A stretch of DNA of 64,000 nucleotides from Beroe forskalii. Its lineage: Eukaryota; Ctenophora; Nuda; Beroida; Beroidae. The position numbers and the translations under genes are program-made. The DNA lies in assembly GCA_011033025.1 (NCBI GenBank), contig WFMF01000174.1:248001-312000 (forward strand), in the 5' to 3' direction. Below the pieces are notes generated by a model, which searched no databases, was not told where the DNA came from, and saw only the letters and a list, made by a program, of their open reading frames with translations. Shown in pieces: positions 9,071-58,700 of the stretch. Within the stretch, counting starts at the first letter, position 1. Each line of letters starts with the position of its first letter.

Positions 9071-9616
9071 CGGGGGGGGATCATGGATTAAGTGCAAGAC
9101 ACGAGGGGTACTAAGTGATTTTTTGCCCAATTTTGAAATACCACCCACCACCCCTTCAGATAATCCCATTAACTAAGTGATATTTGGCACCATTTGTAGT
9201 GACCCACCCCAAAATTAGCATAAAAACCTATCCAAGCGGCAGATTGTCCCCTGTACTAACTGATATTTGTCACTATTTGAAGGTACCCACCCCTAAAGGA
9301 GCATAAAACGATGCAGATTGTCCCATGTACTAACTGAAATTTGTCATGTTTTGTAGGGACCCACCCCAAAATGAGCAGTTTGTCCCGTGTACTAACTGAA
9401 ATTTAATACAATTTGTGGGGACCCACCCCAAAATTATGACGTCATCTGGCAAAAAAGTGCCCAAATATGGAAAAATATGCCATTTGGACTAAGTGATTAT
9501 GATTTTCCCATAAGGTGACCACCTCAGTTAGTACAGTGGACTAAGTGATTTCGCCAAGGGCCAAACACCACCCACCCCGGCCTCGTGTCTTGCACTTAGT
9601 CCCTGATCCCCCCCCG
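9071..9616. mobile_element. 546-base element with ~36-base terminal inverted repeats
   Basis: The left end reads CGGGGGGGGATCATGG and goes on through TTAAGTGCAAGACACGAGG. The complement of the right end is nearly the same over about 36 bases. The interior holds about four loose sub-repeats containing GTACTAACTGAAATTTG and GGGACCCACCCC. No coding capacity and no clear target duplication. It is a MITE-like DNA element of unassigned superfamily. Confidence 0.7.
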
Positions 9617-11874: not shown

Positions 11875-14800
11875 ATGGCAGATGAGTTCGCTGAGCATCT
11901 GCTCATCTCCTCCCTAGCACACATGTTTAAACAGCAAGGGTGGCATCAGGCTTCTCAGTCTGGTTTGTCTCTATTTTCAGAGCTTGCCAGGCACTATATT
12001 AGGAATATTGGGATCATCTCACTCAGATACTCTCTTCATGGTTGGTTGGTTTGTCAATTGTCTATTTGGGGTAAATTACTTGGGTAGTATTTTTATTCAT
12101 TTTGGTAGTCTTCGAAATTATGTTCTTTTGCCTACAAAAAGAGGCAGGTGCATGCTGTGTACCATGTAGATATAATATTCATTTATGTATTCATTTCTTC
12201 AGTGTAAAACAGTCCCTTAGATTTACAGTTTACAAATCTCAACAAGTGAAGTACATAACTTTGTTAAAATCTCAAAGAATTTTTAATATAATGTTGGCAT
12301 TTCAAGAACAGAGTTGGAGAAAAGTCATGTAGATTGATGTCTTGAAGAATTTTTCTTCGTGATATGAATACACTACATAAGTTATGAAAACTTCAATGTG
12401 AATCGTTTTCCTTGTATCCTCACAATTTCATTCATCAGCTGGAAGGTTTGACACAGACTTAGATGATCTTGGTAATGCCTTATCAGAACTTGGCATAAGT
12501 TTGCCTGAGCTCCAAAGATTTTGGTCAGAGACTGAACCACTTAGAGGACTGCCACAGGTTAACTTTAAAAATATTGTTAGGCATAGATTTACACCAAATT
12601 GGTACACCAATCACCACGACATAGTGTAATGTTCGTTGTTCTTTGCTCAGTTACTAGTATCATTGTTTAAATTCTGCCAATTCAACTCTGTCTATATGGT
12701 TGGGAAAGGTCAAATTCTTTCACTTTTAGATAGAAAATTAGATTGCCGTGTATCAGAGATCACATTTGCTTGCTCTGACGGCCTTTCTATCAAACCCTCT
12801 TATCATTGTACAATTGAAGTTCCATTTTATCAACTTTCAGGTATGCAATTTTCCTGCACAATTGCCTGTACAGTTGAACATCCCAGAAGTTCCTAATAAA
12901 GAAGCTTGTTATATTCCTGAGTATTTACCTGCACAGAAGGAGCCTCAGCCACCTCCTGTGCCAGGTTTGTATTCTACAAACTGATCGTGATTTTATCATT
13001 CTGAAGGATAGTTCAGGGGTGTAGAGGCTGTGCTATCCAGACCAAGAATGTTTATTTGAATTGAATTGAACTGTAATAATGTATGGTAGAGTGTTATCAA
13101 AATTGTCATATTATGAGTGATAAGCAAAAATTGTTTTTGAGCCATCAAGTGCTAATTTTTGCCACTTATATTTGTTGCTGCTCCCATTACCAAGTTCCAA
13201 GAACATTTATTAACATATTGCTCCTTCTTAATGTCATCAGTTCCCTTGGAGAATTATTGCTTCAATTTTTCATTGCTCTTACATAAAATTTTTTGTGTGG
13301 GCTTCATATAACAGGCCTAACTGTAGTTTTAAAGCAGTGTGATTTTTACACCACAATTAAATCCATTAGAGGGTGATAATTATAATTCAAATCTGTTTTT
13401 GGTTACATAAACAATGTTCATGAAATTTATTTTTTCAGAAAAACCAGAAAAAGAAGATACCCCAGTCGTCACTACGACAATCACTGACCATACTCCAGAT
13501 CCATTTGATGCAGCAGTTGCTGCTCCTGCTCCAACAGCACCCAACTTCCCCTTTGTTAACAAAACAGATTTGCCTGTTCCTAGTATTTCTAGTTGGGGTT
13601 TTCAACGAGTTAATATTGATACAAAAAAATCTTCGTCTCCACTGGAATGTACAGACACATCTGAAGCAAAACCTTCCACTCCACCAGACAATTTCCTGCT
13701 ATCAGAAAATTCAGATGACTTTGTATTTGCATCCAAGCATTATAAATCCATTGAAGATAAGAAGACCCCTAAATGTGATATTAAAGATGAAGGTGATGTG
13801 AGCAAGGCAGACGATTCAAATGTCAATGATACCTCTTGTATTCCTGAAACTTCTATCAATGATGCTACATTAGTTGAGAAAGACCCTGTTTCTGATTCTA
13901 AATTAGAAAATTCTAATCATGTACATTTGAATGCTTCTGAAGATGTTGTAATGGATGCACCATTGGTACTCCCACCCAGAACATCAACCCCATTAGTTAC
14001 CCCTAAAGAAAAGTCAAAAGTTGTTCAGAATGGATTATCTCTTTCAGTACCCTCACTGAAAGATTCACATGAGCCATTAGTGAAACCAGTTGAAGATTCT
14101 TCCGCCAAGTCTATTCCATCCACTGAAAAACCTATTTCAGCCACTGAAAATGACAAAAACCTTAAAACAAATGCCCCAAAGTCTAACTGTGTTCCAGAAC
14201 AGGATGTTGACGATTTCATAAATGATTTTGATTCTGATGGGTCTGGATTTGAAGATATGACTAGTAAAGAAAATGTGGAGCGCCTGATAAAACCTATCTC
14301 ACCCATGCCAAAACCTCAATCGCCTGTGATAAGTAACCTTGCAAAGTCCCCACCAAATAAAAGAAGAAAGTTGGATAGCCCTTCGTCATCACCCACTATC
14401 GACAGAACACTCCTTAAGAATCGACCTGATTTGATTAAGGAGGATGGTATTAAGAAGACTAAACCAGATTGCAAGTTAATTTCAAATTATCAGCCTTTAA
14501 ACAAGACCAGTCACAGTAAGCCTGTGAAGAATCACAAAAAGTCCAAGGCAAGCTCTATAAATGAATTGTCTAAGTCAAATTCTGACATTATAGACAACAA
14601 TCACAACCAGTCTCATAAAGTTCCTAAGAAGATAAAGAAGAAAGAAGTCTCTCAACCAATCGATCTGTTTAATGAGAGTCCTATAAAACTCACTGTGCCT
14701 AACAGTGAAAAGTCAAAGAGTTCTTCGGAAATTAAAGGAACTGCTGATTTCAAAAAAGATGTCGTTTTCCCTGTATCTGCTCAGAATTGTATCCAGAAAG

Positions 14801-17800
14801 TTGAGCCAATGAAAATTTCAATCCCTAAGAAAGAGACTGAAAGTGAAAAGGAAAAAGTTTCGAATGCAAAGAACTCAACAGCAGCAAAGTTTGATACCCT
14901 TAAAGTATCTGACATCAAAAAAGAGACAAAGAAGAATGATATTTCTACTAAATCATCCTCTAAGGAGACTTTGGATGAAAAAACGGTGAATCCTCTAAAG
15001 ATATCATTAAAAAATGTCAAAAACTCCAAATACAAATCAAAAAGTACAATAGATACTGAAGATGATCTGAGTTCCTTATCATCTGATTCACTTGAGGATT
15101 TCCGAGATCTGTTGCCCAAGAAGGTCAATAAAGTCAAAAAGTCTTCAGAGCATAAATCAAAAAGAACGTTCAAAACAAAAGCTGAACTTAAAAACCCATG
15201 GCCATCATCAATATCATCACCTAAGCAAGATATCGTTGTTGAGAAAGATTTGCAGCCATCTATCCCTCTCAAAGATGCTGATAAAAAGAAGAAATCTGGC
15301 AGTGTTACCACAAAAATAAAGATAGCAAAACCAGCTATGTCAGTATCCCCTCAATCAAATGCAGTGCCTCCTAAAACGACTGTGAAACTCAAACTACCTA
15401 ATCCTATATTGCATGATCCTCAAGAACAAAATTCTTCTGTATCTTCTGCAATCAGCCAACCATCATTGATGAAAGATGATACTTCAGAAAGGCCTTTACC
15501 AGAAGAGCCCACTGTCACAGCTGCGACTCTTAGAATTCCTAAGATTAAGATAAAAATCGGAGGAAGCCATGTTTCGAACGATGGACCTAGTTCGCCAAAC
15601 CTATCATTTTCATCTTCAATTTTAACCAATGCTGAAAGGCCTGTTGTCAAAGCAGAGAACTCAGATCCAGTGCCAGCGACAAAATCGATACCACCCTTAA
15701 AACTATCGGCACCACAGACCAAACCATTGGCTAGTTCGAAAGGGCAGAAAACTACTAAAACTCAAGAGACACTCTCTACTCCCAAATTAGTTCTCCCTGT
15801 GTCAAAGTCTCAACAAATCAAAGAGAACATAACATCTTCGGCATGTACTTCGTCAGACAATAAAAATGCTAAGAACCCGAAAGTATCTTTGCCGACTTCG
15901 ATCCCTGCATTGAAAATCAAGATTCCAGAAAAAGATCCCATCCCATTACAGGAAGTTGTATCAGAAACAAAATTACCTAAGGAAAAGAAGGAGAAGAAAA
16001 TAAAAAAGATAAAAGTTGAAAAGAAAGCTACGAAATCCGTTGAGAAGGCGTCTGCTAAGGTAATATTACATTAAAAGTTCACTGTTCAGTCCATTTAAAA
16101 ACTAATTCGTATTGGTGTCTTATGAGTAAGAGCTGGGATAAACAATGATTTTGCAGTGATTCAACCTCCAAATACGTTTTTATTTGATATTTATTTGATT
16201 GGGAAACCTGAAGAATGAGGAATATTTACCGATATTGTTTTATTTCACTGAAAAATTTTTTTGTTTCACTGAAAAAATTACAGGTCACAGCTAAAGAGAA
16301 AGTTAAAGTCATAGTGCCCCCTGAAATTCCCAGCCATACAGGTTAGTGAAAGCTTAATAAGGAGTTCGGTTGTCAGGTCTTAGTAAAATCTTGTAAATAA
16401 CTGAGCTGCAAATTTTTACTAGCTATATGATAGTCCTTATTTTTTACTTTGCTTCGTACACGAATAGTAACAGAAGACTTGAATCCAGAAACTTTTGCAA
16501 ATTTTAAGTGTTTTGCATGTTCCCAGATGCTTCACTCACTTTTCTACGTAACCATGTCTCCTCAGATGTAACAGTTTCGACTGAAGCGGAAGGTTTGGAA
16601 AGCACCTTGGTCAGTGAAACTGTGGTGTCAGAAACCGTCGCTCAGTCAGAGGTAACATATGTCGTGCCGTACTGATAAGTGCTTACTGATGACATGCAGT
16701 ACTGAGGAAGGGACATTTCACCTTCGACAATTGACCTTACAGCACCGTATCTCCTAAAATTTCACCTCTTAGGTTAGGGTAAGGGTCTGAGTTAGAGTAA
16801 CGTTAGGGTTATGAATAACTATCCGTTTAAATTCACTGTCGTTGAATAAAGCCTCCTATTTTCCCTCAGGATGCCGTCCCAATAAAGGTGTGGTATTGTC
16901 CCACCTGCATGTTGCCTGACGACGGATCCCCCATGGTGGGCTGTGATACCTGTGATGAGTGGTACCACTGGTAAGTCTCAAATACTCCTCAAGCACTTTC
17001 TCAGACATGAGACTTCTTTCTTGTATTACATAATCATTAATCAGCCAGGGGAGGAGACCTCACATACCCAGGATCCTTTAAATATTGGGTTTCCAAAGGT
17101 GTGGGCTCCATCATAGTGCGCTATGGCTACATAGTTTGAGGCAAACCCATGTCTAGGAGGCTACAGGTTCTGGCAAAATATACATCTCAATATTGAGTTT
17201 TAAACTTTTATTAAGCCCGCGTATCCAAAACGGATACATGGACTTCTATTCCTCTACTTGCCAGTCTCTATATTGCAGGCCGTACGTGGGTTTGGTACAA
17301 GCTCCCCCCTACTTGCCAGCCCCATTGCATTGAAACTATAACCCTGATGACCCATTTGCATGCCGTGTGTGGGTTTGGTATAAAAGTATAAGCCCCCCCA
17401 CCGCTGTTAACATGATCACCCCATTTACAGGCCGTGTGTGGGTTTGGTGCAAGCTTCCCCCCCCCTCTTTAAACCAGACCACCCCATTTGCAGGCCGTGT
17501 ATAGGTTTGGTATAAGCCCCCCCCCCACCGCTGTTTACATGATCACTCCATTTGCAGGCCGTGTGTGGGTTTGGTGCAAGCTTCCCCCCCCCCCTCTTTA
17601 AACCAGACCACCCCATTTGCAGGCCGTGTATAGGTTTGGTATAAGCCCCCCACCGCTGTTTACATGATCACTCCATTTACAGGCCGTGTGTGGGACACTA
17701 GCTTCCCCCCCTCTTTAAACCAGACCACCCCATTTGCAGGCCGTGTATAGGTTTGGTATAAGCCCCCCCCACCGCTGTTTACATGATCACCCCATTTGCA

Positions 17801-18552
17801 GGCCGTGTGTTGGTTTGGTTCAAGCTCCACCCTCCCGCTGTAAACCTGATCACCCCATTTGCAGGCCGTGTGTTGGTTTGGTGCAAGCCCCCCCCCGCTG
17901 TTAACATGATCACCCCATTTACAGGCCGTGTGTGGGTTTGGTGCAAGCTTCCCCCCCCTCTTTTAAACCAGACCACCCCATTTGCAGGCCGTGTATAGGT
18001 TTGGTATAAGCCCCCCCCACCGCTGTTTACATGATCACTCCATTTGCAGGCCGTGTGTGGGTTTGGTGCAAGCTCCGCCCGCTGTAAACCTAATCACCCA
18101 ATTTGCAGGCCGTCTGTGTGCTTGGTGCAACCCCCCCCCCCGCTGTAAACCTGATCACCCCATTTGCAGGCCGTATGTGGGTTTGGTACAAGCTTCCCCC
18201 CCCCCCCTGTAAACCTAATCACCCCATTTGCAGGCCGTGTGTTGGTTTGGTTCAAGCTCCACCCTCCCGCTGTAAACCTGATCACCCCATTTGCAGGCCG
18301 TGTGTTGGTTTGGTGCAAGCCCCCCCGCTGTAAACCTGATCACCCCATTTGCAGGCCGTGTGTTGGTTTAGTACTTAAGCTCCCCCCTCCCGCTGTAAAC
18401 CTGATCACTCCATTTGCAGGCCGTGTGTGGGTTTGGTGCAAGCTCCCCCAGAAAACATCGACTGGTACTGCCCTCCCTGCCTCAAACTAAAGAGCAAAAC
18501 GCCGTCCAAGGCTGGCCGGAAACCGGGTGCCAAGCGAAAACGCAAGACTTGA
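11875..18552 (+). CDS. TAF3: TAF3-like TFIID subunit 3 (histone fold + PHD finger), complete, 8 exons
   Basis: Exons by eye: 11875-12040, 12439-12557, 12841-12964, 13439-16059, 16284-16341, 16566-16651, 16870-16970, 18420-18552. Every junction is GT-AG, phases agree, and the total is 3408 bases (1135 residues; human TAF3 has 929). Residues 1 to about 85 match the TAF3 histone fold, which pairs with TAF10 in TFIID. The exon 4 middle is Ser/Lys/Pro-rich and disordered-looking, with a KRRKLDS nuclear-localisation-like motif near residue 443. Residues 1065-1112 form a C4HC3 PHD finger: VWYCPTC, PDDGSPMVGCDTC, WYHWPC, WYCPPC. The Trp before the first Cys and the Asp and Met positions used by TAF3 to hold H3K4me3 are kept, so it should read promoter chromatin. 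A basic tail (KRKRKT) ends the protein. Intron 7 is filled by the acceptor-derived minisatellite at 17262-18419. Confidence 0.93.
17262..18419 (+). repeat. Minisatellite of 18 copies of the TAF3 exon 8 splice acceptor and exon start
   Basis: Each unit (usually 57-69 bases) consists of a branch-like CTGATCAC, the acceptor CCCCATTTGCAG, and then a near-copy of the first ~30 bases of exon 8 (GCCGTGTGTGGGTTTGGTGC), ending in a C-rich run. Copies of the exon start lie at 17279, 17362, 17431, 17494, 17558, 17623, 17683, 17740, 17802, 17865, 17925, 17988, 18050, 18109, 18170, 18234, 18297 and 18355, with the real exon at 18420. All but the one at 17362 keep the AG. In the PHD frame, the copies I translated run into a stop within about one or two units. 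Confidence 0.93.
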
Positions 18553-23007: not shown

Positions 23008-25126
23008 GAAGAAAACAAGATATTTGAAGAAAACAAGATATTTAAATTTCATGCCATTTTTACAAACATAGAGATCGTACAAGTAAAATAAAATTATCAA
23101 GGATGGGAATATCATGGTTAGTTGCTGCTTTGTTATCCTGAGAACAGATTTTGGGACCAATAAATGTTAATTTCCGAGTAATTCAGGCTGAGTGGTCAAC
23201 AACTACCCCATGGTGTAATCTCACATGCAGCCAATAATAGCATATTCGGGGCATAGGAATCATACTTGCTGGGGCTATTGTATGAACCAAAACAAAATAT
23301 GCAAAGTTAAGGCAAGCCTGAGGTTTGAGAAGCCAGCAGATAAATTAAGAATGAAGAGTTGAAGATAAGTGGCTGCTCTGTCAGATTCACCTTAAAGAAT
23401 ATTTGTTTACATGGGATTATTATGCAGCTTGTGGGTATAAACCATTAGTTCCAAATTTAATTAAATTTAGTTATAAGTTATCTTTATTAAATCAAATTAA
23501 AATAATATAAAATTCAATAAAATTATGATTGGCCTTTACAACAGCTACCTAGTTATGGATACAACTTCCAATACAGTGCTATTGTATGAACAAATAGCAC
23601 AGTATATTAACAAACAAGAACACCACCTGGACCTGGAAAGAAGTTAAAAAGCCTCTAGGCTTGAAATTAATCGATAATAGTTATATTGTAAATTTAGCGA
23701 CTGCTACAATGTTAACATTTTGGGCAGACCTATTCTAATCAGTATGGAGCTTCAAAGCTTTATTAACTTGAAGTTGAAGTCATGTGAGGGGAGCCATTCA
23801 ACTTCTTCATGCTTATGCTGGTTTTTGAGTATGGCATCTTTGAGCCTTGTTTTTACCTGACCTAGGCTAGAAGTGGAATCAAGCTGCAACTTTTGATGAA
23901 GTGTATTCCAGAGAACAGAAGATTGGTAAACAAAGTGTTTAGATAGGGTGGGGGTTATAATAGAATTTGATGAAGATCTTTTTGAGAAATTAAAAAGTGA
24001 GTGTAAGGCAATGGGACTTTGAAATTTGATTATCTTAAATATTTCCATAAAACAGTGGTAACTATGGAGGTTTTTAACAGTAAGGATGTCATATTTTTTA
24101 AAGAGGGGTTTAGTGTGTTCCTTGCAGTAGAATTCGACTCCAAGTACTTGGGATCCAATAGGCCTGGCTCTAGAGCAAGTTTTAAACTTATCAATGAATG
24201 CATTATAGTCTCCAAATAGAACTCTAATGCATTTTTTCTGTATAACAAAGAGCTCCGATATTTTTGTATCAGGAATACCACCCCAGACAGATATACAATA
24301 CGCTAGGTGAGACTCAAATAGCGTATGATAAAGGCTTGGGTGGAGTACCTCTGGAATACACTTTTTGATTCTTGATAGAGTTGCAATAGCATAGTTGAGT
24401 TTACGCTTACATTCTTTGATATGAGTGTCCCAGTTTAGATTTTCATCAATATTGATACCTAAGAATTTAGTGCTACTTACTTTTTTGACTTTATGCTTGT
24501 TGATAAATAGATTAAGATTACCATCATGTGTGGTGCCAGCCTCACTTTTCTCCTAGGGTTGAAGTACATGTAGCAGCATTTGGATTGATTGATATGGAGT
24601 TTATTAAGAATCATATACTGATGTACTGACTTAAGTAGTAAGTTTGCTTTTGAATAGGCATCCTGTGCAGTTTTTCCTGTAACAAAGATGTTGGTGTCAT
24701 CTGCAAAAAGTACGAACTCACCCAGTTTAGAGCAGTTAGATATATCATTTATGTAAATTAAGAAAAGCAAGGGGCCAAGGACAGAGCCCTGTGGTACTCC
24801 ATATTGTATTTTTAGTTTCGAGGATTGGTGGCTCAGCACATCAGTATATTGACTTCTATTTGACAGATATGACTTAATGAGTGAGTGAGTGGTTCCATGA
24901 ACTCCATAGTTGATAGTTTATGCAGGAGAGTCTCGTGATCAATAGTATCAAAGGCCTTACTCAAGTCAATAAATATGCCAAGTATATGTTCCTTCTTTGA
25001 AGGGCAGATTCTATATATGATACTGAATAATTCAATGCATGACTGGTTGAATGAGATTTTCTGAAGCCATACTGGTTATGATGGAGAATGTTCTGGGAGG
25101 TGAAAAAGTTGTACAGGCGTGAATAG
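23008..25126 (-). mobile_element. LINE copy B (CR1/Jockey-like), 5'-truncated, inverted
   Basis: The complement of 32355-34470 in LINE copy C, nearly identical by eye. It has the tandem 18-base tail at 23008-23043, the 3' UTR, the C-terminal coding part and the reverse-transcriptase core around 24600-24840 with YGVPQGSVLGPLLFLIYIND and FADDT. The coding frame is broken: the C-terminal part and the RT core lie in separate frames. It is truncated at the 5' side within the reverse-transcriptase domain. Confidence 0.93.
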
Positions 25127-30253: not shown

Positions 30254-31091
30254 TATGGATAGGTACAGGTATTCTGCACGTGCAGATTGTAATCAGTTCT
30301 ATGTGAGTGCTTTCTGATAGTTGTTGATTGCTGCATTTAAGCGTTTGAAAGAACGACATGTTTATTGTTTTGTATTTATAATGGAGAACGGGTATGGCTG
30401 GCATCGTGGAGGCTATATTCCATAGCATCTTCTCATATATCTGTGATAGACGTCGGTCGATTTAAATCAATGCTGAGTTGAAAATTAACAATAAAATTTG
30501 AATTAAGAGCAATTTAAGATTGGCCAAAAGCAAAATCACATTAAGTCGAAAATTGGGCATAAAACATTGCGAATTTGGAAGTCTGCTCGGTTATAATGAA
30601 ATATTATGACTTCCTGCTCACATTACGATCCCCAATCTCATCTAACTAGTCACCATTATCCTTCTATAGTATTCAAAAATTGGCCCATTTTTTTTGTATG
30701 CTTTCGTCTGCTCGAATCAGTACGCTGATGACTTTTCACCAAATCAATTCCAATCACCAAAATACATCACCAAATCACACTATCATCCCCGATTAACATA
30801 ATATTACAGAATTGTGTGCGATTTGAATTACATTGCTTTTGTCACAAATTATATTTTAAAATTCTTGTAAATTCTTGTAAAAAAAATTCTTGTAAATTCT
30901 TGTTCAGTGCGTGATATCACAGATTGGCGCACAATATTGAAGCTCTGTGGTGTGTCAAAAGTGGTAAAAACGATAGCAATGAAAATTTTGCAATTCTCAT
31001 GATGGACCAAAACTCAAAAAGTATAAGTTCAGATATTCGAATTGTGATGAAACATTGAAAACCCTTGACATTGCCATTGTGTAAGTTTACT
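30254..31091. other. Non-coding stretch upstream of LINE copy C
   Basis: AT-rich. A short local repeat of AAATTCTTGTAAATTCTTG lies near 30859-30902. No gene that I can support. Confidence 0.5.
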
Positions 31092-34000
31092 TACAAATGA
31101 TGGCAACAAGGATAACTTCTGCGACAAACTTGAAAAAATTTTTGAATTTTTGCCCAATGATAATGTATTTATCATGGGGGACTTCAATTTAAATCTGATC
31201 AATAAAAAGATTTTTAGCAAATATGAGGACACTTTCTTATCTGCAGGCTTTACTCCACTCATATCCACATACACACACGAAAGACCAGGCACTAGCAAGT
31301 CATGTATTGATAACATCTTCACAAATGGTATCCATAATATTCTTGTCTCTGGTACTATAAGTGATAAAATGAGCCACCACCTCCCTGCATTCCATTTTTC
31401 CGATATAACCCCAAAAATACATAGTGGAACTGAAAAGCAAACCCAATATTATGACTTCAGTAACAAAAATCTAAACAATTTCGTAAGTGAGCTTGAAAAA
31501 ATTCTGGACAATGAACCAACAAATTTCAGTGACTTTTTTAAGAAATACAACCTTTGCCTTGACAAAAACTGTAAGTTATCCACACCTAAGACAACAAAAA
31601 GAACAATTCTTAATAATCCTTGGATAACTGAAGGCATAATTGAATCAATCAATCGAAAGTACGAATTAAAAGCTGAGTGGGCTAACACTATCACTAAAAG
31701 TAGTCCAGATGGTAATGGTGAATTATATAGAATATTTAGTAATTATCGTAGAACCCTCAAACATGTTATATATCAGGCTAAACAATCTTACAAATGCTCT
31801 CAGTTCCAGGAATGCAGGGAGGACCCTAAGAAAACTTGGCGTTTAATTAATGAGCTCAGGGGCTCTAACAAAAAGCAAATAAAGCCCCCCTTTATCATCA
31901 ATAATGAGAAAATTCTTGACCGGCGAAAAATTGCCAATGCCTTTAACAAATACTTCATCTCAATTGCCTCAGAGCTCAACTCTGAATTGCTTGGAATAAA
32001 CCTTAACGGATCCCACTTCCAATCTTTCTCTGAATTCCTCATGCCAGCAAACATAAATTCCATATTCCTGGAAGAGTGCACAGACCTTGAAATCAATGAA
32101 ATTATTGCTGAGTTCCAAAATGGAAAATCAAGTGATATCCCTATCAAAGTTATTAAAAAGTCTTCCCATATCATTGCTAAGCCTCTATCAACAATTTTCA
32201 ATGATCTTATGTCCCTGGGCTCATTTCCTGATGAACTGAAAGTTGGTAAAATAACACCAGTATATAAGAAAGGAAGTCCAGACCTCATAGAAAACTATAG
32301 ACCTATCTCAACACTCCCAATATTTGGCAAGATATTTGAAAAACTTATCTATTCACGCCTGTACAACTTTTTCACCTCCCAGAACATTCTCCATCATAAC
32401 CAGTATGGCTTCAGAAAATCTCATTCAACCAGTCATGCATTGAATTATTCAGTATCATATATAGAATCTGCCCTTCAAAAGAAGGAACATATACTTGGCA
32501 TATTTATTGACTTGAGTAAGGCCTTTGATACTATTGATCACGAGACTCTCCTGCATAAACTATCCCACTATGGAGTTCGCGGAACCACTCACTCACTCAT
32601 TAAGTCATATCTGTCAAATAGAAGTCAATATACTGATGTGCTGAGCCACCAATCCTCGAAACTAAAAATACAATATGGAGTACCACAGGGCTCTGTCCTT
32701 GGCCCCTTGCTTTTCTTAATTTACATAAATGATATATCTAACTGCTCTAAACTGGGTGAGTTCGTACTTTTTGCAGATGACACCAACATCTTTGTTACAG
32801 GAAAAACTGCAAAGGATGCCTATTCAAAAGCAAACTTACTACTTAAGTCAGTACATCAGTATATGATTCTTAATAAACTCCATATCAATCAATCCAAATG
32901 CTGCTACATGTACTTCAACCCTAGGAGAAAAAGTGAGGCTGGCACCACACATGATGGTAATCTTAATCTATTTATCAACAAGCATAAAGTCAAAAAAGTA
33001 AGTAGCACTAAATTCTTAGGTATCAATATTGATGAAAATCTAAACTGGGACACTCATATCAAAGAATGTAAGCGTAAACTCAACTATGCTATTGCAACTC
33101 TATCAAGAATCAAAAAGTGTATTCCAGAGGTACTCCACCCAAGCCTTTATCATACGCTATTTGAGTCTCACCTAGCGTATTGTATATCTGTCTGGGGTGG
33201 TATTCCTGATACAAAAATATCGGAGCTCTTTGTTATACAGAAAAAATGCATTAGAGTTCTATTTGGAGACTATAATGCATTCATTGATAAGTTTAAAACC
33301 TGCTCCAGAGCCAGGCCTATTGGATCCCAAGTACTTGGAGTCGAATTCTACTGCAAGGAACACACTAAACCCCTCTTTAAAAAATATGACATCCTTACTG
33401 TTAAAAACCTCCATAGTTACCACTGTTTTATGGAAATATTTAAGATAATCAAATTTCAAAGTCCCATTGCCTTACACTCACTTTTTAATTTCTCAAAAAT
33501 ATCTTCATCAAATTTTATTATAACCCCCACCCTATCTAAACACTTTGTTTACCAATCTTCTGTTCTCTGGAATACACTTCATCAAAAGTTGCAGCTTGAT
33601 TCCACTTCTAGCCTAGGTCAGGTAAAAACAAGGCTCAAAGATGCCATACTCAAAAACCAGCATAAGCATGAAGAAGTTGAATGGCTCCCCTCACATGACT
33701 TCAACTTCAAGTTAATAAAGCTTTGAAGCTCCATACTGATTAGAGTAGGTCTGCCCAAAATGTTAACATTGTAGCAGTCACTAAATTTACAATATAACTA
33801 TTCTCGATTAATTTCAAGCCTAGAGGCTTTTTAACTTCTTTCCAGGTCCAGGTGGTGTTCTTGTTTGTTAATATACTGTGCTATTTGTTCATACAATAGC
33901 ACTGTATTGAAGTTGTATCCATAACTAGGTAGTTGTTGTAAAGGCCAATCATAATTTTATTGAATTTTATATTATTTTAATTTGATTTAATAAAGATAAC

Positions 34001-36867: not shown

Positions 36868-37341
36868 TTAGCATGGGCATTCCATGCCAGTGACATTTGA
36901 GAAACATGACTTCACTGCTGTTCTGGCATAAGGAATGTATGATATTGTGTACCAGGCAAATGCTAAGAATTGAATGATACAACAAAGAAGGGCCAATATG
37001 GCAATTTTGATAACAACTCCACACACAATGGTTAGAATGATAGAGACAAACAAAACTATGGTAGCCACCAGACGGTCCTTTTCAAACATTTTCTTGATTT
37101 GAGAAACAGGGCCTCTTAAAAATAGCGAACCACAAAGTGCTGTAATGGTACCAATGGAATACAACAGAGCAAATGCAGTGTATTTGCCAAGCCATAATTC
37201 TACAGTACCAAATATTGATAAAAATATCCCAATGATAAAACATGCACCAAAGGCATACAGCCTATTTTCCCAGGACAAGTTACACATGTTGTCTGGTTCA
37301 TCTGCATCAGGCTCACCCATCATCCTTGACATTAAACTCAT
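36868..37341 (-). CDS. SFT2-domain vesicle transport protein
   Basis: A 157-residue frame, close to the ~160 residues of human SFT2D2. SFT2 proteins are four-pass Golgi membrane proteins linked to retrograde endosome-Golgi vesicle fusion. The N-terminus is acidic and cytosolic (GEPDADEPDN); then come LSWENRLYAFGACFIIGIFL (membrane segment 1), a second segment around YTAFALLYSIGTITALCGSL, the family loop FLRGPVSQIKKMFEKDRLVA, a third segment, and a fourth ending QFLAFAWYTISYIPYARTAV. These match SFT2D1/2 along the whole length. The coding region has no intron, unlike the multi-exon vertebrate genes. A likely 5' UTR intron ends at 37361 (TTTTTACAG on the minus strand). Family certain; exact paralogue not. 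Confidence 0.88.
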   Translation of the reverse strand: MSLMSRMMGEPDADEPDNMCNLSWENRLYAFGACFIIGIFLSIFGTVELWLGKYTAFALLYSIGTITALCGSLFLRGPVSQIKKMFEKDRLVATIVLFVSIILTIVCGVVIKIAILALLCCIIQFLAFAWYTISYIPYARTAVKSCFSNVTGMECPC

Positions 37342-37515
37342 TGTAGAATACCTGCCTTAGCTGTAAAAATAGTGGAAAACGTTATTATTGATTAATTTAT
37401 TACATCTCACTTCCTGCCCTGGCTAGGGTGGTAACCCTCTGCATTATCAGAAAAAGCAAGAGAAATAGAGAGTCAGGACCTATCTAGAATATTCATTGTA
37501 AAATTTTTCTTATTT

Positions 37516-43188: not shown

Positions 43189-46100
43189 TCAGTTCAAGTG
43201 TGATCGAATTATAAGTCCACTTGGTCCTCTCTTTGTCAGGACATCAGCAGGCATCTGTTTTGATGCAATGAATGTAACAGACAGTTCTCCTCTTTCAATC
43301 ATTTCCCTGATAGAAGCAACAGTACATATTAGCCTTTTTTCAACAGGGTCCTTGGTTTTATACAACAGTTCTAAAAGACCTTTATTGTCTACAAAACATT
43401 GCATACTGATAGTATGGTGTATTCCAAGAATCTCCTTCAGGGTCTTTTCTATAAATATTGTATGATCAATGGCATTCAAGAGTCCAAGGCTTTCTGCAGC
43501 TATTGTGCTTTGACATACACGATTTAGCTTCACTGATTTCCACACTATAGGGTTTTTCACAGAACTGTCTTCATTAGTAATAAATATGATGTACCCAGAT
43601 TGGCTGCCATTATTTGGCAAGTTGCAAATGCTGCATCTGAGTAAGAGACTAGTCTGGGATGACTCATTAGTCTTGGAATTTCCTTGAAAGTTAGGCAAAT
43701 ATCATTATTATCCTTCACGTTTTTGACAATTTTGTTGTATGTAATGATATCCTGGACATTTGGATCTGAAAGATGATTACTCAACTGGCAAACTTCAAAA
43801 GATATGTCAGGTCTTGTTTGGATTGATAACCACAATAGTTGACCAACTCCAGTTCTCAGCAACCTATATTCATTGGAATTAACAGCAAATGTTTTTTGAG
43901 CTTTTCGTTTTGGAGTAATCTGTACTTGACTGAGCTCACTTATATACTTTGTTTGAGACACTGTTATTGAGAAATCATTTGGATTTTGAGTTACTTCCAG
44001 ACCAAGAAAAGTGAAAGCTAATTCATCATTGGATTTTATTTCAAAGCCTTCCAGCAAAGAGTTCACTAATTTATTCTCAAAACTTTGAGTTCCAGCAAAC
44101 ACGAAGTCATCAACATGAATCGTCATCATACCATCAAGTTCTCCATTTGAATGATGGTAAAATAATGCATCATCATAGGGACATCTTATGAGACCTGATT
44201 GCTGGATCTTTTCTTTCACATTTTCATACCACATTCGTGCTGCATCAGATAAACCATAAACACATTTCTTTAACTTCCAAACAACATTTGGTTTTGCAAA
44301 TTCTTTGGGTGGTATAATGAAGACCTTCCTTTCAATTGGCTTTCCTTGCAAAAATGCTGAGGCAATGTCAATACTTTGCAGTTTCCATTTGTTTGTAGCT
44401 GCTATGCTGAACAATAATCTCAAGGATTCTTTCCTACATGTTGGGCTCACAGTGTCAGTACTTTGTAGCTGATCCTCTTCGAACCCCCTAGCAACAAGTC
44501 TGGCTTTCTTCTTTCCTTTATTCTCTGTAAGAACCCACCTCGTTGATATTGGGTAATCATCATCTTCCATTTCATTCGTAGGAAATTCTTCAAACACTTC
44601 ATTTGCTTTCCATTTCTTTATCTCATCTCTCTTTTCAGAACCATATGGATCATTGTTCACAGGAGTCACAACCAGCTTCTTCTTTTCAACTTCAGATTTC
44701 TTTGAGCATAGTTTTTGTATTTTATTCTGTATGTTTGTTTCAGCTTCAATGTCAACCAGATTTTCCTCACTTACTTGGGTTTCAACATTGGGTTCATTTC
44801 TGACTGCTTCAGGATCATTTGGAGTTGACAGGATATCTTTTCTCATCATGTTCAGTGCATCTGAAAACTCATTGGTGGAGCTTTCCTGCACATGTTCTTC
44901 ATTTGGTGGATTGTTGCCACTGTTGGAGTCTGAAACTTTACCATACAAGTCATTTACTTTTACAAGTCTGGCTCTATGACATCGTATAAGATATCCTCCA
45001 TGTCTTACAAATATGACCTTACCATCAATACCAGCAATGCTACCTGGACCTTTCCAGCGTTTATCATTGTCTCTCTTGTAGTAAACAAGATCACCAAAAT
45101 TCAAATCTTCAGAATATACATCTCTAGTTTTGGCTCTGATTGCACGGCGAATCTTTTCACTTGCCTCTGATTCCATCTGTGCACGCCTAGCAACATAAAT
45201 TGCTCTTATCTGATGAGCCACTTCTTCACTTGGGCTTTCATCTTCCACAATGGTAGGGCTTGAATATGGATCATTTATGGATGGTAGATTTGGATTTTTA
45301 CCAAACATCAATTGGTAAGGAGAGAAACCATTGATGTTGGATAGAGAGTTTTTTGCATGTGTAGCCCAAGCAAGTGCTGTTTCAACTGAACATCCTGTTT
45401 CCTCAATAATCTTATCAACATTACTTGCTATCATTGCATGATGTCTCTCAACTAAACCATTACTCCATGGTGCTTCTGCACCTGTTGTTGCCACATGTAC
45501 ATTCAGCTTTTCACACATATCCATACAACTGCTGTTGACATATTCTCCACCATTATCAAACATCAATTTTTTGGGTGTTCCAAAAATTGCAAACCAATGT
45601 GTAAAAATGCTATTGACAATCACATCTTTGTTCTTGGACCTTACAACTTTAGATGAGGAAAAACGTGACTTGTGGTCAATCATATGTTGGAAATAGATAT
45701 TTTTCTCAGCATCATATACTTTGATATCCATGGCAACTGTATCATTGCAATCCTTTGCAAGAGGCATGCAAACTATAGGTCTGTTCTTTGGATGAGTATA
45801 TCTTCTACAAACTTCACAAGAAGAAGAAACTGTGTCAATCTCTTGTGATAGCTCTTTGCTCAATTTTCCACTTGCTCTCACTAATGACTTTAGACTGTCA
45901 CTGGTAGGATGAGCAAATTGTTTATGCAACTTCTTGGCTATAACAGAAAGCTTTTCTTCCTCTTCAATATTCAAAAATACATTTCCTGCACTGCAGACAC
46001 AAACTTCATTATGAACTGACATTTTGCTAATAGGAATGCTACAATGACCAGTCTCAGTGAAAATTATATTTTCTTTATTCCCAAAAGCTTCAACAGTATC

Positions 46101-46553
46101 TTCATTGAAATCCAACACCATCTTTGCTGACTTCATTGTCTGCTTACTGATTAACAGAGGAATTTGATCATGAACTACTTGAGCAGCAATAGTGATAGGC
46201 ATTTTGCAAACTAAAGCAGGAAAACTGCATTTTTCTGATGATTCTGTTGGAACATTATCTCCAAAGCGAAATGAAACCTTATTTTTCTCATATTTGACCT
46301 TATCCCTATCAGTTGGGCTCAAAGAATCAAGATAAGCATCTAGCCAATCTTTTCCACAAACAGTTATATTGCAGCCACTGTCAAGAACAGCAAGTCCAAA
46401 GTTCTGTTTAGTAAAATCTTTCATGACATCTTCATTTGTTGACTGGATATGTGGAGCATTTTGAAATAATGTTATGTCATTTGGATAAAAATGCTTATCA
46501 GGACATTCTGCTGCAAAATGATATATTGATCGGCAGTTATTACATACCATCAC
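43189..46553 (-). CDS. copia pol: protease, integrase, reverse transcriptase, RNase H (fossil element part)
   Basis: Domains in copia order: zinc knuckle CNNCRSIYHFAAEC; aspartic protease VLDSGCNITVCG; integrase with HKQFAHPTSDSL, CEVCRRY, FDNGGEYVN and WSNGLVERHHAMI; reverse transcriptase with RWVLTENKGKKKARLVARGF, SIDIASAFLQGK and HVDDFVFAGT; RNase H with AAESLGLLNAIDHTIF. Integrase before RT is the hallmark of Ty1/copia. About one break. The sequence resembles copia elements of marine invertebrates, but I do not assign a clade. Confidence 0.92.
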
Positions 46554-47470
46554 ATTGCCAAATCTGTCTTTAGGGTTAGTTTCTTTTCTTTTTGAGCTGT
46601 CATTTGTGGTAACATCATTCCTCCAGTTTGATCTGTTTTTCTTGGACCATTATTGTAGGAGCCTCTGCTACGAAAATTCTGAAATTGTCTTCTATTATTG
46701 TAGTTTTGTTGTCTTGGGTTTCCTCTATATCTCGAATTACCACGACTGTAATATGTTTGATATCCTGAGCTATCACTTTCAGTAGGGTCATCATTGTATT
46801 CATCAAAAGATGAATAATACATATTTTCTTCTGGTTCAGTCTTCACTTTAATATCAAATGACTTCTTTTCCACACTATCATCCTCAGATTTGACTGATAC
46901 AGGTTCTTCTAGCTCAGTGATTCTTTTGAGGGTATCTTTCATATTCTCATAAGTCAAATCTCCAACAATTGCTACAGCTACTGAGTACTTATATTCACTA
47001 ACATTAGCACTTCGAAGTAATTCATATGCAAGGACTGGAGATGGCAAATTAATTTCATGATCTTGCAGACGTTTCACAAGTTTCTCAAAATCCAAAACAT
47101 AATCCTTGATACTCTGCTTATTCTTTCTTGTAAGTTTACGAAATGAGTCATATGCATTAAACTTTTCCTTTGCCAAATCATCCATGTAAATCTTGTCAAG
47201 CATCTCCAAGAGGCAATCCACACCAGTTAGCTGTTTTGGTTGATCATCAATGGTAACAGTTTTTCCTTTTTGCAAGTCATCTATTGACATATCTAACGCA
47301 ACACTCTTTGCTTTCTCAGGGAGCTTCAATAGCAAGGTCCCTGCCTGCTTCTCAGCATCAACATTTGTTATTGAGGTCCATAGCCTGACCTCCTTCTTGA
47401 AATTCACATAACTCTCTTTTATCACTGGGATTGGTGGCCCATGTTTTGATTCAGTTTCTGTTTCAGACAT
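46550..47470 (-). CDS. copia gag (fossil element part)
   Basis: A 306-residue frame next to the 5' LTR. The N-terminal half has the copia Gag pattern: SYVNFKKEVRLWTSI, AEKQAGTLLLKLPEKAKSVA, LLEMLDKIYMDDLAKEKFNA. The C-terminal part is rich in Arg, Asn and Tyr (RGNSRYRGNPRQQNYNNRRQ), fitting RNA binding. The zinc knuckle lies at the start of the pol frame, which follows immediately. Confidence 0.88.
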   Translation of the reverse strand: MSETETESKHGPPIPVIKESYVNFKKEVRLWTSITNVDAEKQAGTLLLKLPEKAKSVALDMSIDDLQKGKTVTIDDQPKQLTGVDCLLEMLDKIYMDDLAKEKFNAYDSFRKLTRKNKQSIKDYVLDFEKLVKRLQDHEINLPSPVLAYELLRSANVSEYKYSVAVAIVGDLTYENMKDTLKRITELEEPVSVKSEDDSVEKKSFDIKVKTEPEENMYYSSFDEYNDDPTESDSSGYQTYYSRGNSRYRGNPRQQNYNNRRQFQNFRSRGSYNNGPRKTDQTGGMMLPQMTAQKEKKLTLKTDLAM

Positions 47471-52724: not shown

Positions 52725-55700
52725 ATGTCATCAGCCATACCAAATGCCATCAACAGTAACTTGGTTTATTCCAAAAAGAATCCCCAACAAGATATTGAAC
52801 TCCTGAAAAAATTGGGAGTGGAACATATGGTGATGTGTACCATGTAAGTCCTTCCATTCCTCAAAAAAATATTTATTTATATAATTTGATCGAATTGATT
52901 GATTAATTAAGTAATTTTTAAAAGCACAGTTTCATTGTCAGTCCTCCCCATTATAAGTCTACTCTAAACCATTTCAGGCAAGATATATTGAAGGAGGAGC
53001 TGAGACTGCAGTAAAAATTGTTAAAATTGATGCTGGAGATGACTGGGCAGCTATCCAGCAAGAGGTTTCTATACTTCCTATTGAAGATTACATCAATTAG
53101 TAACTTTTATATTCTTCATAATTTGATGCTGGGCTCTATTTATATCTTGATTATGTGAATGAACTTTTCAGGTTATCATTTTACAAGAATGTAAACACCC
53201 AAACATTGTTGCTTACATGGGCAGTTATCTCAGCAAAGAGAAATTATGGATTACCATGGAATACTGTAGTGGAGGTTAGTTCTTATGCCCTTCATACAGC
53301 TGCCCTGATTTGTGTTTTAACTTGTTCTGTGCTTGCCAGCACCCTGATGAAGCAATGTTGTGATTTCCAATAGGCAAAATTTAATTGGCATTAGGTGTCA
53401 GCCAAGTGACAGTATCACTTTCGTGGCATTAAATTAACATATTGTACCATGATCAGTTATACTCCACTAGAAATTGCACAGTAGCAATTCACTTTAATTT
53501 AATGTAATTTGTGCAGGAAGTGTACAGGATTTGTACAGAGTGAATGGTCCTCTGTCAGAGAACCAGATTGCATTTGTAAGCAGAGAAACACTCAAAGGGT
53601 TGTCCTATCTACACCAGCGCTCAACTGTCCACAGGGATATTAAGGTCAGAGAGTTTGTATATCTAATTTCCATTGTCCATTGTCCATTGACCATAAATAT
53701 CTCAAATACAGTACTGAAGTTAGACTTAGTTACATTAGTGGGGAAAGTCTAATTTTTCTCTAAATGCGCATATGGTAACATAATATTAAACTTTTCCAGG
53801 GTGCAAATATTCTATTGTCTGTTATGGGATGTGTGAAATTGGCTGATTTCGGTATTTCTGCAACAATCACTGAGACGTTGGGCAAGAGAAAATCGTTCAT
53901 AGGCACTCCTTACTGGTAAGCAGCAGGCATTGGACATTGTGTAATGAAGATTGTAAATCAATCAACGCTGTAATGAAGTAATATGCAGAATGAAGATTCT
54001 AAATAACCACTAGATAGATATGGGGCCCAAAAACGGTGTGTGGTGCACTTTGTACTGCACAATCACCCTACCCAACTGATGGCCCGTTTCTGAGCCCAGA
54101 GCATATCTTACCTTCTCATATAAATTACTTGCAAGTTGAATGCATGAATGACCAAAATTGACCTATTTGTAAAAATAACCTAGAATATTTGTCCTTGAAT
54201 GCATGATTTTTATTTAATTTTGATATCCATACCTATAAATATATTATTTTTTTAGATATAAAATTACTCAAAAACCCTCAAGACATGAGTTTGTCTAATC
54301 GCTGCCACTTTGTACTGTGTTTTGTAGATTACAATAATAGGGTGTAATAGAATTTTGTAAATTTGCCAAGTATTATTCTATTTAGCCTTATTTCACGTCT
54401 TGTTTTTCCAAAATGAAGTTCACTGGCTCCCCACAGGATGGCTCCAGAGGTAGCTGCAGTTGAGACAAAGGGTGGATACGATCACATGTGTGACATCTGG
54501 GCAGTAGGTAATTGCCATGTTGTTATCAAAGGCTAGAGCATATTCTATAATTCTAAATAATTAAGAACTAATTCGAATTACTGCTAAGGAGTGCACTGAG
54601 ATATAAACTGCTCACCCCACCCAGGAATAACTGCTATTGAGTGCGCTGAGATGCAACCCCCATTTTACGAGATGCACCCCATGAAGATGCTGTACATGAT
54701 GACCAAAAGCAGTTACAGATCTCCAACTCTGAAACAGAAGAGCAAATGGTTTCTTGGATCAAGTTATATGTCTATGTAGTGTGTACAGTGTGTACAGTGT
54801 GTACAGTGTGTAGTGTGTGCAGTGTGTACAGTGTGTACAGTGTGTACAGTGTGTACAGTGTGTGGCAGTGTGTGACAGTGTGTGGCAGTGTGTGGCAGTG
54901 TCTGGCAGTGTGTGGCAGTGTGTGACAGTGTGTGACAGTGTGTGACAGTGTGTGGCAGTGTGTTACAGTGTGTGATAGTGTGTTACAGTGTGTACAGTGT
55001 GTACAGTGTGTACAGATAGTGATCAAATCACCATCTCGTGTTGATTGAAACAGTAGAATGAAAGCATATAATATGATGTTATACAATCTATTGACAGGTC
55101 TCAGAAGTTCCACACCTTCCTAACTCAAGCGCTCACTAAGAACGCCAAGAAGCGTCCCACAGCTGACAAACTCCTTTCTCACCCCTTCGTGAACCAGTTC
55201 CTATTGGGTGATCTCCTCAAACCACTCATAGAGGGGACTCAGGCCCAGGTACAAGGGAATGTGTTTGTGTGGGTCTGCGGTGGTTTTGTAAGCCTTCGTT
55301 ACTATAGATTCTGTGATATGAGAAAGAACGTGGCGGCTAAACTTAAAAAGAACGAGCGAATTACTGCGGGAGACTCCCGGGAGTCCTCCGGGAGCCCTCC
55401 GGGAGTACTCCGAGAGTCCTCCGAGAGTACTCCGAGAGTCCTCCGAGAGTCCTCCGGGAGTACTCCGGGAGTACTCCGGGAGTACTCCGAGAGTCCCCCG
55501 GGAGTCCCCCGGGAGTCCCCCGGGAGTCCTACGGGAGTCCTACGGGAGTACCACGGGAGTGCCACGGGAGTACCCCGGGAGTCCCCCGGGAGTCCTACGG
55601 GAGTACCCCGGGAGTCCCCCGGGAGTCCTACGGGAGTACCCCGGGAGTCCCCCGGGAGTCCTACGGGAGTACCACGGGAGTGCCACGGGAGTACCCCGGG

Positions 55701-58700
55701 AGTGCCACGGGAGTACCACAGGAGTCCTACGGGAGTACCCCGGGAGTCCTACGGGAGTACCCCGGGAGTCCCCGGGAGTCCTACGGGAGTCCCACGGGAG
55801 TCCTACGGGAGTACCCCGGGAGGATTACCACGTGAGAAATTTTTTATAGAACACTTGCCTGATCAGGGCCATAGCGGTTTAAATCCTCACTTGCCTTGCG
55901 GGCTCTGGCCAAACCGGATACATCCTCGGGCAGTATGCCAAAATGGACCTGATAGGCGTGTCTATGTATTCAGATGTAGTGATTTTTTAGTACGATCAAA
56001 GGAGGTGGGAGGAGGTGGCGAGGAAGCGGGTAGTGATGGAGGTGGGGATGCTGATGAGGGAGACAAATTCGGTGAGGAGAACATCATCTGTATTCTGCCC
56101 GAGGATGTATCCGGTTTTGGCCAGAGCCCGCAAGGCAAGTGAGGATTTAAACTGATATGGCCCTGATCAGGCAAGTGTTCTATAAAAAATTTCTCCCGTG
56201 GTAATCCTCCCGGGGTACTCCCGTAGGACTCCCGTGGGACTCCCGGGGTACTCCCGTAGGACTCCCGGGGGACTCCCGTAGGACTCCCGGGGGACTCCCG
56301 TAGGACTCCCGGGTGACTCCCGGGGTACTCCCGTAGGACTCCCGGGGTACTCCCGTAAGACTCCCGTGGCACTCCCCGCACTCCCGGGGTACTCCCGTGG
56401 CACTCCCGTGGCACTCCCGGGGCACTCCCGTGGCACTCCCGTGGCACTCCCGTGGTACTCCCGTGGTACTCCCGTAGGACTCCCGGGGGACTCCCGGGGG
56501 ACTCCCGGGGTACTCCCGTAGGACTCCCGGGGGACTCCCGGGGTACTCCCGTAGGACTCCCGTGGTACTCTCGTGGCACTCCCGGGGCACTCCCGTGGTA
56601 CTCCCGTTGTACTCCCGTAGGACTCCCGGGGGACTCCCGGGGGACTCCCGGGGGACTCCCGGGGTACTCCCGTGGCACTCCCCGCACTCCCGGGGTACTC
56701 CCGTGGCACTCCCGTGGCACTCCCGGGGCACTCCCGGGGTACTCCCGTAGGACTCCCGGGGGACTCCCGGGGTACTCCCGTAGGACTCCCGGGGTACTCC
56801 CGTAGGACTCCCGTGGTACTCCCGCTTACCTTCCAAAAGTGGGTAGCAGGAGTAGCACTGCTACCGAGGGGATTTTTTTCAAAACCGAGGGGATTTTCAA
56901 GTCAAGATGCACGCACGCGCAGCGTGCGTGCCTCGCCAAAATCTCGAAAAAAAATTGATAAAAATTGTATTCATTTGCAACTAATGCGTTCTAATACGTA
57001 ACAACGTAGATCAATTGTAACTGTAAAGATGCATATGTGAAGGGAATACAATCATACAAAGGGACGTGAGGGGAAGTGATCATAAGGTGAGGGGAAGCGG
57101 CTAGTGAAGCAAGGGGAAGTGAAGTAGAGGGGAAGATGGTGTGATGGTCAGATGGACTGAGGGGAATAAAGTGACGTTAACTGAATGAAAGTAAGGGGAC
57201 TTTAGCAACTAAGATGAGGGGAAGTGTGGTGAGGGGAATTTACTAATTAAGGTTAGGGGAAGTATGGTGAGGGGAATTAACTAATTAAGGTGAGGGGAAG
57301 TATGGTGAGGGGAATTATGGTGAGGGGAATTAACTAATTAAGGTGAGGGGAAGAATGGTGAGGGGAAGTATGGTGAGGGGAATTATGGTTATTTGTGATG
57401 AGATGTAAGGTGAGGGGAAAAGAGGTGAGGGAAAAGCGATATTCCACACACGAGGTAAGTACTGACCATTTTAAACTTTTGTAATAGTTCAATGATAAAT
57501 AATCAATAGAAAACACCTTTGGCAAGAAAAGGAATGTTAATCAAATTAAACATTACCAGATTGATCTCAGAGGCAGACTCACGCACAAAACCTTAAAAAT
57601 TTTTAGCCTGCGGCGGGCTGTTTTAACTCAGTAATGTCACTAAATTGATCCTAGCCGCAATCTAAGGCATAAAGAAACCTTCACAATTTTTACCTACCGC
57701 TGGCTGTTTTTTAATCACATTATACAATAAATAGATTGATGTTAGAGGCAGATTCAGGTGGAAAACCTTTAAAATTTTCGCCGGCGGCGGGCTGCACTGA
57801 TAGAATTTTGCCACTTAATTGATCCTACACAATCTCAGGTGTAAAACTTTCACAATTTTGCCTATGGCTGGCTTTTTAATCACATTATCTATTAACTAAA
57901 TTGATCTTAGAGGCAGATTCATGTGCAAAACCCTGAAATTTCGCCTGCGGCGCGGGCTGTTGTGATCCTATTATGCCACTAAATTGATCCTAGACACAAT
58001 TTAGGGTATGAAACCTTCACAATTTTTGCCTACCGCTGGCTGTTTTAATCACATTATACAATAAATAGATTGATGTTAGAGGCAGATTCAGGTGCAAAAC
58101 CTTAAAAATTTTCGCCTGCAGCAGGCTGCACTGATAGAATTTTGCCACTTAATTGATCCTACACAATCTCAGGTGTAAAACTTTCATAGTTTTTGCCTAT
58201 GGCTGGCTGTTTTAATCACATTATACATCAACTAAATTGATCTTAGAGGCAGATTCATGTGCAAAACCTTGAAAATTTTCGCCTGCGGCGGGCTGTACTT
58301 AATTGCCACTTAATTGACTCTTGGCTCCGAGCAAGCTTGAAACCGAGGGGATTTTGAAATCTGCTACCGAGGGGATTTTCCTTTTTGGAAGGTAAGTACT
58401 CCCGTGGCACTCCCGGGGTACTCCCGTGGCACTCCCGTGGTACTCCCGTAGGACTCCCGGGGGACTCCCGGGGTACTCCCGTAGGACTCCCGTGGCACTC
58501 CCGTGGTACTCCCGTAGGACCCCCGTAGGACTCCCGGGGGACTCCCGGGGGACTCCCGGAGGACTCCCGGGAGTCTCCCGCAGTAATTCGCTCGTATGAC
58601 CGACCATGCTTCATGGTCATGAAGCATGGTCATACTGAAGCATGGTGTCATGCTTCATTCATGAAGAAATTACGTAGCGGCAGTTTTTAGTTTATTTGCC

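Follow-up and report, generated by a model that had tools for sequence, protein, structure and literature searches.

Tandem repeats of intron/exon boundaries, named "mirages", have been described in the Adh3 gene of amphioxus and in its globin genes BflGb6 (6 and 3 units in two haplotypes) and BflGb9, with units ranging from 10 to 160 bp (PMC3087553). According to the available text of that paper, regular splicing is suggested by RT-PCR and by the Adh3 data, and the clusters, which are unstable in length, are offered as a route to new introns. In amphioxus PGBD5 the repeats number 2 versus 7 and 3 versus 6 in two public sequence versions and, in the available portion of PMC3902484, none of them is covered by cDNA; the Adh and TnC mirages are cited there as free of aberrant mRNAs. 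These two papers confirm the phenomenon of junction-spanning minisatellites in amphioxus, which had been mentioned in the initial annotation of the locus considered here. A minisatellite of human IFI6 (6-16) gives multiple splice donors, as reported in the available text of PMC4526556, which cites Turri et al. 1995; two downstream repeat units are said to act as donors, resulting in three mRNA species.

The array discussed below is located in the window, i.e., the whole stretch of 64,000 nucleotides of Beroe forskalii DNA that was analysed (contig WFMF01000174.1, positions 248,001 to 312,000), and it is a new and large case of the mirage kind. Among the open-access titles and abstract openings listed, none dealt with this TAF3 boundary array, and in the available part of an open-access paper naming both amphioxus and TAF3 the passage is unrelated to the array. 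Judging from the DNA, it is probably a mirage minisatellite derived from the boundary between intron 7 and exon 8 of TAF3, in which repeat turnover would coexist with normal splicing.

The TAF3 Gene and Its Exon Model

TAF3 is a subunit of TFIID and its PHD finger is a reader of H3K4me3. In the window, the gene is on the + strand and its predicted coding model (11875..18552) comprises eight exons (11875-12040, 12439-12557, 12841-12964, 13439-16059, 16284-16341, 16566-16651, 16870-16970, and 18420-18552), whose borders were set by eye on the basis of frame, GT/AG, and homology, and which encode 1135 aa with a single terminal stop. The identification as TAF3, already proposed in the initial annotation, is borne out by the N-terminal histone fold (PF07524, Bromo_TP, 27.3 bits with a cut-off of 24.6, obtained with joined pieces of exons 1 and 2 that are not letter-identical to the final model), by the C-terminal PHD finger (PF00628, 37.4 bits), and by the best PDB matches; in particular, TAF3 accounts for the top four of 67 matching sequences (E 2.7e-24 to 4.4e-23), the next being BPTF (6.6e-10).

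Exon 7 (16870..16970, + strand) encodes the first half of the PHD finger and ends in the donor CACTG/GTAAGT in phase 2. Exon 8 (18420..18552, + strand) encodes the second half and the basic C-terminus, and contributes its first 30 bases to the repeat unit as the exonic half; the Cys codons at 18469 and 18478 are those of the last two zinc ligands, which we take to be such from the known PHD pattern. Splicing at 18420 is a prediction placed by frame and homology: the donor at 16970 and the acceptor at 18420 join in frame in the 1135-aa model, in agreement with what had been proposed before. Intron 7 is thus 1449 nt long, compared with 218-474 nt for the other six TAF3 introns.

Architecture of the Array

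Upstream of the true copy at 18420 there are 18 tandem copies of a unit of ~63 bp, which falls within the range reported for mirage units and straddles the intron 7/exon 8 boundary (19 copies in total). The regular unit consists of the last ~32 nt of intron 7 and the first ~30 nt of exon 8. On the + strand, the first exonic base after the acceptor is at 17279, 17362, 17431, 17494, 17558, 17623, 17683, 17740, and 17802 in copies 1-9, at 17865, 17925, 17988, 18050, 18109, 18170, 18234, 18297, and 18355 in copies 10-18, and at 18420 in the nineteenth copy, the one that continues in frame into the PHD exon. The spacing is 57-83 bp across the array and 57-65 bp for copies 3-18.

All the upstream copies except copy 2, which reads AT, keep the AG (17/18), as had been counted in the initial annotation. 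Its description of 18 upstream near-copies is correct for the number and for the boundary-spanning arrangement and is less suited to the 5' edge: in fact, the exon part of copy 1 (17243..17308, + strand, AG at 17277-17278) is identical to the true exon at 27/30 positions and its intron part at only 14/36, and the intron part of copy 2 (17309..17391, + strand) matches at 15/36, so that the term fits best copies 3-18 (17392..18383, + strand), which are 16 regular units with CAG at each acceptor and mostly C-rich joints. The true end of intron 7 (18384..18419, + strand) is composed of a C-run, a CTGAT branch-like motif, and CATTTGCAG.

The repeat is confined to this place in the window. Tandem Repeats Finder returned a period of 63 with 17.1 copies and also periods of 125 and 432; a 20-base core of the unit occurs 18 times in the array with at most 3 mismatches (copy 1 has 5) and is absent from both strands of the window outside it, and blastn of the consensus unit against the window gave 19 matches, none outside the array. 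Searched in viral_contigs, a 21-base core had no match, a result that says nothing about animals, and the PHD query found one weak locus (55% over 19 residues); Rfam at gathering scores gave no match.

Divergence and Origin of the Copies

The identity to the true copy over 66 bases is 74-94% for copies 3-18 (19-29/30 in the exon half and 28-34/36 in the intron half), 62% for copy 1, and 53% for copy 2; the most diverged copies are therefore these two at the 5' edge, and the true copy at the 3' edge departs little from the consensus. Over the same 66 bases copies 10 and 17 do not differ at all, and the pairs flanking them are less alike (91% for 9/16 and 79% for 11/18), as block exchange would give. 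A second unit type is represented by copies 4, 6, 8, and 12, which carry CCAGACC where the branch-like motif would stand. Copy 1 may derive from a copy-2-like unit by a deletion between ATTGCA and TTTGCA, since CTACTTGCCAG is common to copies 1 and 2 in their upstream part. A zinc-ligand Cys codon is lost in three of the 18 upstream copies (1, 14, and 15), indicating that the pseudo-exons are not maintained for encoding a PHD finger, and this drift fits non-coding repeat turnover.

The divergence also bears on the quite unlikely case of an assembly error that multiplied or reshuffled a short real array. C-runs of up to 12 and near-identical units are hard to assemble, and the BflGb6 mirage seemed aberrantly assembled in the draft genome (PMC3087553); however, an assembly that wrongly repeats one stretch would tend to yield identical units, and here the units differ by many substitutions and indels, with a mean pairwise identity of 0.83 for copies 3-19. 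Moreover, re-examination and new data upheld the original sequence of the amphioxus PGBD5 repeats (PMC3902484).

The origin of a genuine array can be outlined from its joints, since a C-run of at least 4 is present at 15 of the 18 and a CCCCC occupies the corresponding position of the true exon. The first tandem copy would have been generated by exchange or slippage between the C-run at the intron end and the CCCCC of the exon, an event that would duplicate exactly the ~63-bp unit. The array could then have been amplified and reshuffled by unequal exchange involving blocks of one, two, and about seven units, and the three periods detected indicate that blocks of two and about seven units were probably copied too. 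The repeat copies lie within the enlarged intron 7.

Quality of the Acceptors

Acceptors were scored with splice-site matrices that are approximations and not MaxEntScan. With the approximate acceptor matrix, the true site scores 9.0, copies 5 and 13 are equal to it, and copies 1 and 7 are higher, so that 4/18 upstream copies score at or above the true acceptor; about 1.1% of the 3737 + strand AGs in the window, those of the array included, reach the same value. Base -3 is C and base +1 is G in 19/19 copies. Of the 17 AG-bearing upstream copies, 12 contain a yUnAy motif, the A of which lies 16 or 21 nt from the exon start; copies 1, 4, 6, 8, and 12 have none in the interval searched, 14 to 45 nt before the exon. 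Local sequence does not single out 18420, because its score does not exceed that of several decoys.

The equal strength of some decoys argues against the preferred reading of a mirage with normal splicing and is consistent with a length-dependent splicing switch, in which decoys would compete with 18420 and the array length would set how much of the TAF3 has a complete PHD finger. The retained AGs, the constant bases at -3 and +1, and the frequent yUnAy motifs point in the same direction, and regulatory tuning by copy number, as suggested in the initial annotation, is possible; nevertheless, a switch of this kind is unlikely, five of the 17 AG-bearing decoys being devoid of the branch motif and amphioxus mirages being reported, in the available texts, as not disturbing splicing (PMC3087553; PMC3902484).

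Both readings are touched by the rate of change along the unit, which was estimated from the changes counted on a tree relating the copies, over a gapless alignment anchored on the junction core. The changes per column are 0.62 in the eight columns up to the AG and 0.83 in the first 12 exon columns, 2.05 in the branch region, and 1.92 in the later exon part, and the lowest-changing 8-column window is CAGGCCGT. Compared with random columns, the eight columns up to the AG give p 0.009 for all 19 copies and 0.03 without copies 1, 2, and 7, and contiguous windows are equally low in 10/45 and 6/45 cases, respectively. These slow columns around the junction could hint at selective constraint, which would favor the switch over normal splicing; however, selection as their cause is weakened by the core-anchored gapless alignment, by indels that inflate the flanks, by the relatedness of the copies, and by the equally low windows, and the slow columns may reflect alignment anchoring and shared descent.

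Three candidate causes for the choice of the last site were rejected. Acceptor strength fails because two copies (5 and 13) equal the true site and two (1 and 7) exceed it. Predicted RNA accessibility was derived from local folds with flanks of 60, 100, and 150 nt for the 18 upstream copies and the true site, and the folds did not separate the latter: the upstream copies at or above it were 4, 13, and 11 of 18 for the AG region, 7, 10, and 14 for the branch region, and 3, 9, and 4 for the exon part. A purine-rich enhancer past the repeated 30 nt is not apparent, since the purine share of the following 40 nt, 0.45 in the true exon, ranges over 0.33-0.45 after the 18 decoys, with no clear difference.

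The array could also be a source of exons, with decoy units spliced in as microexons or giving new introns, as proposed for intron gain from mirages in amphioxus globins (PMC3087553). The GTs in copy 15 (18177, score 0.9) and in copy 1 (17286, score -0.5) outscore two donors (-0.7 and -1.2) among the seven of the TAF3 model; in contrast, the remaining 10 of the 12 best listed GT sites of the array region score -1.4 with the approximate matrix, and this use of the array is highly improbable.

Protein Consequences of Upstream Acceptors

Translation from any of the 18 upstream copies, with or without AG, would miss the last two zinc ligands, in keeping with the proposal of the initial annotation that only the last copy continues into the exon completing the PHD finger. 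Reading from copies 1-17 meets a stop no later than 18331 and never reaches the ligand codons; copies 9-12, 16, and 17 are in frame by distance, yet each of them meets a stop. Copy 18 is read through the ligand codons out of their frame, as far as a stop at 18488. The claim that an earlier acceptor puts a stop before the final ligands is therefore valid for 17/18 copies (16/17 with AG) and fails for copy 18, which stops past them. The loss of the last two ligands from 18/18 decoys counts in favor of a splicing switch.

A stop that lies in a lengthened terminal exon would make junction-dependent decay less effective. The early stops would be of this type, given that exon 8 closes the coding sequence and has no known exon after it, and truncated TAF3 is conceivable.

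Choice of the Acceptor

The rules for competing 3' sites, as given in the available text of PMC9225289, lead to different expectations. The upstream site is preferred overall among 3' sites at least 20 nt apart, and classical work on duplicated 3' sites favored the site nearer its intron partner. For sites of like strength, this upstream preference is strong when the intron is short and falls significantly when it is long; long introns prefer the sites closest across the exon, with a change near 250 nt. The overall preference counts against normal splicing of the array and in favor of the switch, and the gain of the exon-nearer site in introns over ~250 nt supports normal splicing. The distance from the donor at 16970 is 308 nt for the first decoy and 1449 nt for the true site; every acceptor is thus on the long side of ~250 nt, which favors 18420, only narrowly for the first copies. 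The 3' site data of PMC9225289 refer to internal exons and exon 8 is terminal, so that they do not transfer directly to the array.

The preferred reading of a mirage with normal splicing is also sustained by amphioxus mirages of like architecture, for which regular splicing has been suggested (PMC3087553), by the Adh, TnC, and PGBD5 cases (PMC3902484), and by a second array (7 x ~62 bp) that abuts an apparent exon in the same window. Under normal splicing, most transcripts would be spliced to the last copy at 18420, presumably since it is the sole copy with a real terminal exon behind it, and the decoys would be used rarely or never.

A bolder version of the switch, which appears quite improbable, considers the array as a heritable and perhaps somatically variable rheostat in which copy number would select the proximity rule and hence the share of H3K4me3-reading TFIID: growth from 1 to 19 copies would have taken intron 7 from ~300 to 1449 nt, starting near the ~250-nt range at which exon definition takes over from intron definition, and in this way copy number would set the rule.

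Since the intron-centric and exon-centric rules predict opposite ends of the array, the TAF3 locus is a good test of them; it represents a natural titration of 3' splice-site choice, with 17 AG look-alikes before one real exon and a clear protein read-out, the presence or absence of the PHD finger. Normal splicing, if it holds, would show that the choice is not made by acceptor sequence alone, and if 18420 is in fact used, it must be made by something past the repeated 30 nt or by the whole exon. If splicing is not normal, repeat length would control the chromatin-reading domain of TFIID.

Other Features of the Window

Other repeats of the window resemble splice sites or abut exons. At 60572-61007, downstream of pieces of a MAP4K3-like kinase, seven units of ~62 bp lie directly 5' of an apparent proline-rich exon (beginning somewhere between about 60994 and 61006), forming the second boundary-abutting array; CTCAG is present in its last two copies, compared with CTCAC in copies 2-5. 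An array of AGGTGAGG-type donor-like units at 57050-57460 ends before a strong donor-like CGAG/GTAAGTACT, and GTAAGTACT recurs at 58392 and 58904. At 9157-9438, ~2.4 kb upstream of the TAF3 start, two to three copies of an acceptor-like repeat (Tandem Repeats Finder periods 74 and 62) contain ACTAAC followed by TTTGTAG, and no exon was recognised there. Long 11-bp arrays (CGGGAGTCCCC / CTCCCGTGGGA) occupy 55367-55822, 56207-56824, and 58398-58580, downstream of the final piece of kinase sequence recognised in the MAP4K3-like gene.

Among the open frames, 43560-46649 (- strand) is of a Copia-type retrotransposon (RVT_2 117.9 bits; rve 32.4 bits, just under the cut-off of 32.6), 31069-33723 (+ strand) and 24480-24917 (- strand) are non-LTR-like reverse transcriptase frames (RVT_1), and 36871-37356 (- strand) is a single, possibly intronless frame of the Got1/Sft2 family (PF04178, 109.6 bits).

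Comparison with Known Boundary Repeats

Like the amphioxus mirages described for Adh3, TnC, BflGb6, BflGb9, and PGBD5, the TAF3 array is made of boundary repeats with splice signals beside a real boundary (PMC3087553; PMC3902484), and the authentic boundary is the end copy (the nineteenth), continuous with the gene. Mirages are also characterized by normal mRNA, by copy numbers that vary between haplotypes or tissues, and by homogenised inner copies with the edges left out; as for the last feature, the TAF3 array has two identical inner copies (10 and 17) and diverged copies 1 and 2 at its 5' edge, but its 3' edge is near the consensus. The IFI6 minisatellite shares with it units that carry splice signals, which are donors in IFI6 and acceptors in TAF3 (PMC4526556). 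In contrast to the 6 or 3 units of BflGb6 and the 2 or 7 and 3 or 6 of PGBD5, as given in the available texts, the TAF3 array has 18 extra copies of ~63 bp, and it differs from the amphioxus mirages in its host gene, which encodes a TFIID subunit, and in a boundary that splits a zinc finger, thus extending the mirage phenomenon to a general transcription factor.
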